Shown one piece after another: positions 22,823 through 38,629 of a stretch of DNA of 64,000 nucleotides. Source of the stretch: an uncultured Christensenella sp. (GTDB lineage: Bacteria; Bacillota; Clostridia; Christensenellales; UBA3700); contig CASERZ010000004.1 of NCBI GenBank assembly GCA_949290515.1, positions 1 through 64,000 on the forward strand, written 5' to 3'. A program made the translations under genes and the position numbers. Every line of letters starts with the position of its first letter. Positions within the stretch are counted from its first letter, which is position 1. Under the pieces are notes generated by a model. The model was not told where the DNA came from. It made no database searches and saw nothing but the letters and a program-made list of their open reading frames with translations.

Positions 22823-22978
22823 ACTCAAATACTCGGCTTTATATTGTCGGTACTCTCTTATATCGACAAGAATTCTATATAAGAAGAAGAAAGCAAATCT
22901 CTCGCCTTTTTGTTTTACTTCTTGGCAACTGCCTTGACAGCTTCACGGCTAGACAGTCCAAAATAGTGACGCTCGTCT

Positions 22979-23258
22979 ACCGACCAAACGAAACGGTGTA
23001 TATTCACTATGCGAATAAAACCGTTTGTCGGTACTTTTTAAATTAATAGGATACACTCTTCCCCACAAGGGGAGCGAGTCTTTTTATGCCGTATAAAAAC
23101 AGCCTTTGAAGAGTGCTGTGATTTTTGCCTTTTCAAACCCGAGTGCGCGACGAGCGTACTTTTGTACGTGACTGAGCAGGAGCGGTGCAGATAAAGACGA
23201 AAGGCGCTGCGCTATATAATGACGGCACGTGACGCTTTGCTTGCTCGCTATGCCGTCA
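22979..23258. repeat. dispersed 3'-end repeat, copy B
   Basis: The 470-nt gap between tRNA-Ser and the LRR gene holds no intact gene. Bases 22979-23005 match bases 7-33 of the window exactly in inverse orientation, and ACCGACCAAACG can pair with CGTTTGTCGGT (23022-23032). Further right, TGTGATTTTTGC, GAGCGTAC (23152), GTACGTGACTGAGC and GCAGATAAAG align with the units at 2341 and 2436. The end GGCGCTGCGCTATA leads into a TGACGGCA/TGCCGTCA inverted repeat (23219-23258) whose last TCA is the LRR stop codon. Confidence 0.65.
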
Positions 23259-37067: not shown

Positions 37068-37769
37068 ATGGAAGTATTGTTAGGTGTTTTGATGGCGGTT
37101 TGCCTTGTAATGGGCGTTCTTAAAAGCTACTGTCGCAACAAAGAATATCTCGAATACGAACTGCTGTTCAAAACTTGCGGTTCGTTGAGTTTCGTTTGTC
37201 TGGGCATTCTGGCTTTTTATATCTCGGGTACGGACAATATGCAATATGCGCTGGCTGTAATAATCGCGCTCGTACTCGGACTTTTGGGCGATATCTTCTT
37301 ATGCCTTCACGATATACTCGTAATACCCAAACGCAAAGACTTCGTGCAGTATGTCGGCGTAACATTCTTTTTCCTCGGACATATATGCTATATGTTCAAT
37401 TTCCTCTCGCTCGCACCGCTCAAACTCTATCTTATTCCTTTCGTAGTAATAATGCCCGTAATTTATCTCGTACTCGCTCTTACAAAAAAGGTAAAGACAA
37501 ATACTCTTCAAAACGTATTTCTTACTATTTATTTTCTTGCGCTGAATCTGATACTGCTCTCTTCCATAAACTTGATAATCGTAAGAGAAGATAATGTATT
37601 CCCTATTCTGGTACTCATTGCAAGCACGCTGTTTATATCGTCGGATATAGTACTCGGACTTTCGTGGTTTGCTCCCTCGGCAAAACTGCATAAAAACTAC
37701 GACTTCTATATCATACTCAGCTACTTTGCGGCACAATGCATATATGCTATATCAATATACTTTGTATGA
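37068..37769 (+). CDS. YhhN/TMEM86-family membrane protein
   Basis: An integral membrane protein with about eight helices. The family's acidic motif is seen in LVLGLLGDIFLCL and the C-terminal FISSDIVLGLS; mammalian relatives are lysoplasmalogenases, so a lysolipid hydrolase role is possible but unproven in bacteria. The ATG at 37053 would lie upstream of the predicted transcription start; the ATG at 37068 is 6 nt after the -10 and gives a complete first helix. A third ATG (37092) has AGGTG upstream but would cut that helix. Confidence 0.8.
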   Translation: MEVLLGVLMAVCLVMGVLKSYCRNKEYLEYELLFKTCGSLSFVCLGILAFYISGTDNMQYALAVIIALVLGLLGDIFLCLHDILVIPKRKDFVQYVGVTFFFLGHICYMFNFLSLAPLKLYLIPFVVIMPVIYLVLALTKKVKTNTLQNVFLTIYFLALNLILLSSINLIIVREDNVFPILVLIASTLFISSDIVLGLSWFAPSAKLHKNYDFYIILSYFAAQCIYAISIYFV

Positions 37770-37794
37770 GTATGATTGCTCCCCGACATAACGA

Positions 37795-37820
37795 AAAGAC
37801 GCCTCAAGGGCGTCTTTTTT
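37795..37820 (+). terminator. terminator of the YhhN gene
   Basis: GACGCC/GGGCGTC stem, TCAA loop, TTTTTT. Confidence 0.9.
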
Positions 37821-37886
37821 ACACCAAATTATAAGCTGCTTATTATATATGCAGTCAATCTCGACAGGATAACTAACCGAAAATCA

Positions 37887-38016
37887 GTACCGCTCGAAGG
37901 GGTGCGACTAGGCGCTGTAAGCTGTGAATTTTGCGTTTTGTATTTAAGTAAAGTAATAACAAAACCCGTACCGCCGAGAAGGTGTGCGAGCTAGGCTGTA
38001 AGCCGTGGATTTTGCG
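37887..38016 (+). repeat. two 49-nt direct repeats (R1, R2)
   Basis: R1 (37887-37935) and R2 (37968-38016) both begin GTACCGC, continue GAAGG and TGTAAGC and end ATTTTGCG; about four fifths of positions agree. They lie in a 540-nt gap without a gene. R2 leads into TTTTCCGCG (38021), which pairs with CGCGGAAAA (38080-38088) around a TAATAC/GTATTA hairpin. Confidence 0.7.
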
Positions 38017-38116
38017 ATGCTTTTCCGCGAGAAGGAAGAAGTAATACTTGCCGTATTACGATGACGCCGAACTGAAAAGCGCGGAAAAAATTAAGCTAAT
38101 TTATAATATTAACTCT

Positions 38117-38305
38117 GTACCGCCGAGAAGGGGGAAGCACTTGCCTTTGCATTGCAAAGGTGCTGCGCAATTCAAAATGCATAGATTGCGGAAGTTACAA
38201 GGCAAAGCGCGCAGACAATACTGGAGGTATTATCAAGCGATTTAACGAAGTAAATGCCGTGACATATGCATTTTGAATCTTGTGCTTTCCCCTTCGAGGC
38301 GGTAC
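38117..38305. repeat. 189-bp palindromic MITE-like element
   Basis: Terminal inverted repeats GTACCGCCGAGAAGGGGGAA/complement (38117-38140 and 38282-38305, a few mismatches) and a perfect subterminal inverted repeat ATTCAAAATGCATA/TATGCATTTTGAAT (38170-38183, 38265-38278). The centre holds AATAC-TGGAG-GTATT. No transposase is encoded. The right end stops 3 bp before the stop codon of the zinc-ribbon gene. Terminal bases are shared with R1 and R2, so all three belong to one family. Confidence 0.75.
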
Positions 38306-38308
38306 CCA

Positions 38309-38629
38309 TCACATATACGCCACGCCCATTGAGAACAACGCCAGATAGCATATCAGCACAAGCAATATAACCATTAACCAGATTATAAATCCGTAAATAG
38401 CGTTTCTTGCAAGAACTTTTGAAAAGACCGGATAAGTCTTTCTGAAACAAAAACTGACTATAAGCCCCACAAAAGGCAACAATATCGCGGTCAACACGAG
38501 ATACCTTGCCAAGTGAATATTGACAAGTTCTCTCGACTTTGTGTTGGGATTGTAGAGTTGCTCGCCGCAGAAAGGACAAACCACCATATCTTTATCAACT
38601 TCTCTGCCGCATTTGGGACACTGATTCAT
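38309..38629 (-). CDS. zinc-ribbon membrane protein
   Basis: A 106-residue protein: an N-terminal zinc ribbon (CPKCGREV, then CPFCGEQL; four cysteines) and two membrane helices (about 42-62 and 78-102). Similar small proteins are common and of unknown function. The promoter places the -10 (TAAAAT) 6 nt before the ATG with no ribosome binding site, so it is a leaderless candidate. The 3' end abuts the palindromic repeat. Confidence 0.8.
   Translation of the reverse strand: MNQCPKCGREVDKDMVVCPFCGEQLYNPNTKSRELVNIHLARYLVLTAILLPFVGLIVSFCFRKTYPVFSKVLARNAIYGFIIWLMVILLVLICYLALFSMGVAYM

Follow-up and report, generated by a model that had tools for sequence, protein, structure and literature searches.

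The window, that is, the whole stretch of 64,000 nucleotides under analysis, contains at 37887-38305 a three-unit array in + orientation, in which two truncated units are followed by a complete long hairpin. The left arm and the core are repeated across the units, and the right arm is single and borne by the last unit alone. Immediately upstream, a left-end motif (37830-37886, +), consisting of a short hairpin and then GACAGGATAACTAACC, is conserved in the orthologue of the close species G008; by eye, a motif of this type precedes many other left arms, not every one. A promoter within this motif (TTGYCT-N17-YAGAAT) was considered and rejected, being visible by eye in some spacers but not before every unit, and a scan of 37700-38420 gave one promoter-like site versus 1.4 expected, with no terminator. 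In unit 1 (37887-37967, +), the left arm GTACCGCTCGAAGGGG...ATTTTGCG is accompanied by a short filler, and both the right arm and the tip core are lacking. Unit 2 (37968-38088, +) contains the left arm and an A-type core with the tip hairpin GTAATAC-TTGCC-GTATTAC (38041-38059, +), the right arm again being missing. This unit matches the R1 core model, a covariance model of the unit core with 93 positions and 27 sequences, at 38007-38099 with 99.4 bits, and the R2 tip model of 57 positions at 38021-38077. An AT-rich spacer (38089-38116, +), of which a near-identical version precedes a unit in locus L245, leads to unit 3 (38117-38305, +), the complete long hairpin, which possesses a left arm, a B-type core with the tip AATAC-TGGAG-GTATT (38217-38231, +), and the right arm of the array. 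The right end is fixed, lies three bases from a zinc-ribbon gene's stop codon (38309-38311), and is identical in position in G008.

The original prediction had described this region as a 189-bp MITE-like palindrome accompanied by two partial copies. The length of the element at 38117-38305 is borne out, as are the central AATAC/GTATT hairpin, the perfect 14-bp subterminal repeats (38170-38183 and 38265-38278), and the termination of the element three bases before the zinc-ribbon stop codon. The 24-bp terminal inverted repeats (38117-38140 and 38282-38305, both +) are present but imperfect, with 21 of 24 positions complementary, and two of the three mismatches constitute a tandem GA/GA step. 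The repeats R1 (37887-37935) and R2 (37968-38016) indeed have the GTACCGC start and the ATTTTGCG tail in common, and the R2 flank runs on, as described, into TTTTCCGCG, the TAATAC hairpin at 38041-38059, and then CGCGGAAAA. The division into one element and two partial copies is replaced by an array in which the left arm and core recur and the right arm occurs once. Furthermore, GTACCGCCGAGAAGG with up to three mismatches occurs six times in the window versus 0.85 expected. Long hairpins had been anticipated for the whole region; the complete element folds accordingly, at -90.7 kcal/mol versus a shuffle mean of -52.2 (z -9.2, 0 of 200 shuffles as good), but the left half (37880-38100) has no folding excess (z 0.20, 105 of 200 shuffles at least as good), because R1 and R2 repeat there without a right arm. 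Elsewhere in the window, a 28-bp perfect inverted repeat (GAATATACACCGTTTCGTTTGGTCGGTA) is found at 7-34 and 22978-23005, separated by 22.9 kb.

In the window's own genome, G000, a DNA self-search returned 88 matches at E up to 10, and those at E 1e-8 or better occupy 20 places, including the window. The R1 core model has 32 matches in G000, all confined to 18 stretches, 36 matches in G008, and 15 in G015. Two further G000 stretches, L257 and L258, contain no match to this model; 63 bases of the B-type core are matched at 87% in L258. Weak matches to the model in another four of the genus's 17 genomes correspond to long hairpins whose arms and tip are different, for example GTTCGGCGAGAA...TTCTCGCCGAAC. 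The same search also retrieved hairpins with other tips (G001, G280, G037, and G072), and across the order matches exist in 14 of 297 genomes. Since the repeat is multicopy and present in relatives, neither single-copy status nor absence from relatives, against which the original prediction had been set, is found here.

The repeats of the window type, hereafter the home family, occupy the same places in two species with different contents. Twenty G000 stretches and twenty G008 stretches around the repeats were compared. For 17 of the 20 from G000, the flanks can be aligned with an array stretch of G008 at 78-98% identity, mostly 91-98%, a single flank being compared for L247 and L250, where the array lies at a contig end. 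At the site orthologous to L241, G008 carries a truncated array, and a G008 array is present at the orthologous site of all 18 stretches holding the 32 R1 matches. The orthologous arrays differ in unit number and in their cores, with one right end each. At the zinc-ribbon site, the array ends in a hairpin whose core is of the B type in G000 but of the A type in G008, and the preceding units differ in number and kind. Neither this site nor that of L241 carries an array in the congeners G006 and G015, and the left junction at these array-free sites is too diverged for the home-family ends to be read. Among 15 congeners with an identified typA gene, three (G000, G008, and G015) have an array there, G003 being judged on 110 bp upstream. 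A different repeat, of the GTCATTTCGAGCGTAGTCGAGAAATC type, is located upstream of typA in other congeners (L307, L309, L311, and L314), where the home group has arrays. The insertions of the home lineage are probably old and now mostly static, and would have been reshaped by recombination.

Signs of transposition are observed in a related family bounded by GGCA...TGCC. Scattered similar copies of approximately 170 bp with the ends GGCAATACCGCAC or GGCAGCACCGCAC exist in G634, G453, and G062, the last containing 14 copies with 87-100% identity. Both ends were searched for in 48 loci and were placed 37 times. The flanking 4-mers are identical at 20 of these 37 places, in a set retaining some uncertain end placements (e.g., L141 and one of two L153 rows), whereas re-pairing averages 6.8 and never exceeds 17 (5000 trials, none reaching 20). 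Eight of the 20 identical flanks are not the palindrome TTAA (TTAG twice, CTTG, CTAA, ATAA, TTTA twice, and TTAC). These flanks therefore indicate MITE-type insertions. Core-less miniatures with both ends of this family also occur in G453 (L371, L369, and L370, 31-59 bp) and in G062 (L333), as though the palindrome had lost its centre. A transposase with matching ends, for which the original prediction had proposed a check, was sought and not found. No gene-carrying element with GGCA-family ends was detected; in G453, the one genome searched, with one end, the 18 exact GGCAATACCGCAC sites belong to short elements, to miniatures lacking the core, or to unpaired chance occurrences. Similarly, ORF clusters in 80 loci, viewed by eye at the start of each sequence, revealed no transposase as a recurrent neighbour.

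Hairpins with the same tip extend far beyond the genus. The R2 tip model finds matches in 61 of 391 genomes of the class, in 39 of 223 genera, among families with different ends. Across the phylum, it matches 8 of 398 genomes drawn, the window's own genome included, and five of these are single matches outside the class; a few single matches may be chance, because the E-values are rough. A scan of species genomes with the tip pattern returned at least 106 stretches, and the 80 matches listed are mostly from Clostridia; the list further contains MAGs under the names delta proteobacterium (Kiruna3_bin-1548) and Bacteroides sp. (NALB_7961_8), which may be mislabelled. The tip pattern has no match in viral_contigs, and the window array has none among phages. 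For the Ruminococcus element L159, no plasmid match was found at E 1e-5, and phages give short pieces only, at E up to 10. Weak plasmid matches (E up to 10) include records of Subdoligranulum variabile, and the four examined carry elements of this kind. Two such plasmid records (L372 and L374; OY725877 and OY725837) have GGCA ends and a shortened core, with the flanks CTAA/CTAA and ATAA/ATAA, respectively. Many R2 matches are situated at contig ends (e.g., G655, G573, and G628), and the repeats therefore probably break assemblies too. The R1 and R2 models serve to detect such elements where a plain sequence search sees nothing, as in G024, G062, and others.

Read outward, the tip in the aligned sequences follows the pattern GA[CA]G[CA]AG-N-AATAC-N5-GTATT-[TA]C[AG]A[GT]GA, with two sequences more divergent. 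This sameness is partly by construction, because most sequences were retrieved with that very pattern, and the relatives in general were found via tip patterns or tip-containing models. The stem beside the tip, in which pairing is not by construction, varies freely and stays paired, with a covariation score of 0.437 versus 0.131 for shuffled alignments (0 of 500) and 0.113 for the best slid one. A pair inside the loop, between columns 17 and 42, also covaries (CG in 20, AU in 4, and GC in 2 of 27 sequences). In the home family, the core gives 0.255 versus 0.117 shuffled and at most 0.100 slid; the shuffle controls are not to be taken as probabilities where sequences are related. RNAalifold recovers these single pairs in the home family as well, spaced by three columns and separated by G.A steps. 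CGTC or GACG lies near the stem but does not abut it.

Mismatches along the arms are distributed unequally between the strands. With the strand defined by the tip, and with the tip and 14 bases beyond it left out, 58 distinct hairpins contain 335 G.A versus 47 T.C mismatches, 98 A.A versus 34 T.T, and 242 G.T versus 105 A.C. A first count in 31 hairpins, which included tip positions fixed by the search pattern, gave 287 G.A and 28 T.C. The G.A polarity exists in all five groups and is weak in the single G015 hairpin (7 versus 1, p 0.07). The polarity of G.T versus A.C is strong in the two non-home groups (83 versus 21 and 125 versus 45); the home family does not show it (20 versus 22 in G000 and 12 versus 16 in G008). 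The G.A excess may derive in part from a plain purine richness of the strand. One strand seems to be kept foldable, as RNA or as single-stranded DNA.

Regarding the genomic surroundings, the flanking genes are ordinary and varied, and many arrays, as judged by eye, have a right end directly next to a stop codon, a terminator T-run, or a gene start. Five loci (L172, L178, L183, L187, and L201) have an element near V-ATPase genes, maybe through coincidence and shared descent; in L178, the tip is located between the genes of subunits A and F. These properties bear on whether the hairpin is a structured RNA with a role for the host, such as an mRNA stabiliser, an attenuator, or another cis-regulator at gene ends, needed by the neighbouring transcripts. 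Array positions kept between species, covariation with G.A steps, strand polarity, the right ends at gene boundaries, and the V-ATPase placement (between A and F in L178, proximity in the four other loci) are all consistent with such a role. However, the upstream gene is co-directional for 7 of 17 arrays in G000, 10 of 14 in G008, and 14 of 36 others, in counts that rest on imperfect longest-ORF gene calls and in which the last group leaves out 17 home-genus loci. The gene-end location that had been predicted is thus typical of the arrays, but their orientation to genes is not fixed. Because elements stand in either orientation to the flanking genes, the folded strand does not simply belong to host mRNAs, and a role in 3' UTRs was rejected for want of an orientation bias. 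The ordinary and varied neighbours also speak against a host role, as do the copy bursts with target duplications in relatives. In addition, no Rfam family matches at the gathering score at the array, the sole match in the window being a tRNA elsewhere, or in 12 related loci. A host regulatory RNA is accordingly judged unlikely.

The strand polarity would also suit repeats of the REP/REPIN type that a Y1 tyrosine transposase (RAYT) mobilises as single-stranded DNA, and in G000 the element is on the C-rich replication strand at 12 of 15 loci (p 0.035). The element is on the G-rich strand in 3 of 15 loci in G000 and 3 of 12 in G008, two counts that are not mutually independent, but the remaining species show no bias, with 21 of 49. 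The corresponding domain, PF01797, matches in 11 of 26 genomes and does not track the repeats. In G000 a partial match lies at the end of contig C18; in the array-rich G008 and G015 the domain is absent and below the cut-off, respectively, though contig ends could hide a gene, and it is present in genomes devoid of R1 core model matches, such as G007. Moreover, the related GGCA family is flanked by 4-bp duplications, which are not generally expected from Y1 transposition. A Y1 transposase was consequently rejected as the mobiliser on this distribution, and movement of the RAYT type appears very improbable. A further reading takes the AATAC-N5-GTATT palindrome as a site for a protein on duplex DNA, either an operator or a nucleoid-protein site, with the hairpin being incidental. 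The palindrome GTAATAC-N5-GTATTAC is near-invariant in the home family, and the sites are stable, as such a reading would have it; but a duplex site does not need covarying arms, nor does it need the same mismatch polarity along the whole arms of families with different ends. We give this reading scarcely any credence.

Taken together, the region is probably a mosaic array, old and vertically inherited, of a palindromic, non-autonomous element of the MITE type, kin to the long-hairpin elements spread through Clostridia. The MITE-like kind named in the original prediction is upheld by the multiple copies, the presence in relatives, and a related family of more recent spread with 4-bp target duplications. 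Membership of the home family itself is not fully proven, because its target duplication is unreadable and a transposase was not found; it works like a MITE. The relatives would have spread through a transposase acting in trans and making the 4-bp duplications, and the insertions would then have become static in the lineage of the window. Slippage in replication or unequal exchange between the left-arm direct repeats could subsequently add, remove, or swap units, leaving the right end in place. The core and the strand polarity may be kept since the element would act at some step as a folded single strand, either its own RNA or single-stranded DNA, and not within host gene transcripts. More tentatively, the tip, in which tandem G.A steps and a small asymmetric loop rich in G.A surround AATAC-N5-GTATT, could be a putative recognition module for a protein that binds the folded single strand, RNA or single-stranded DNA. 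Palindromes whose ends are unrelated could carry it, both throughout Clostridia and in MAGs assigned to other phyla, because their copying, or their survival as long palindromes, would depend on it. If the tip is a real module, it offers a testable handle on the spread and persistence of palindromic repeats lacking a known mobiliser, and the question of which protein reads it, as RNA or as single-stranded DNA, becomes addressable.

In the searches made of open PMC papers, we found no published description of these repeats, the papers listed for the tip sequences as text being unrelated by title, nor one of a single hairpin tip that keeps a fixed strand polarity and is combined with several different terminal repeats. 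Several known systems are nevertheless comparable. The BOX elements of Streptococcus pneumoniae and S. suis are dispersed intergenic modular repeats with a variable number of inner modules, strong hairpins, slow current insertion, and clustering with other repeats (PMC3049150). The window arrays resemble BOX in their modular build, with repeated inner modules between single ends and a number that varies among relatives, and also in being dispersed and intergenic, in their strong hairpins, slow current insertion, and clustering with other repeats, a likeness by description and not by sequence comparison (PMC3049150). BOX differs in its A, B, and C modules, with few contacts of boxB to the rest, whereas the repeated unit here is the left arm plus the core (PMC3049150). 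ERIC/IRU and other bacterial MITEs are likewise non-coding palindromes of 100-200 bp with inverted-repeat ends and a mostly intergenic location, and several of them lack a known transposase (PMC10969869). Unlike these MITEs, the present elements form unit arrays and have a hairpin core with repeated G.A steps behind different terminal repeats.

The CGTC- and GTAG-tagged REPs are, like the present elements, multicopy palindromes at gene ends with CGTC or GACG beside the stem (PMC3733652). In that report, some REPs sit inside longer palindromes, CGTC REPs also occur without a known transposase, and the main text makes no mention of Firmicutes or Clostridi (PMC3733652). These REPs differ in that they are 20-40 bp long and their tag abuts the stem, whereas here at least three bases (three in the A type) separate the two, and the arms are far longer (PMC3733652).
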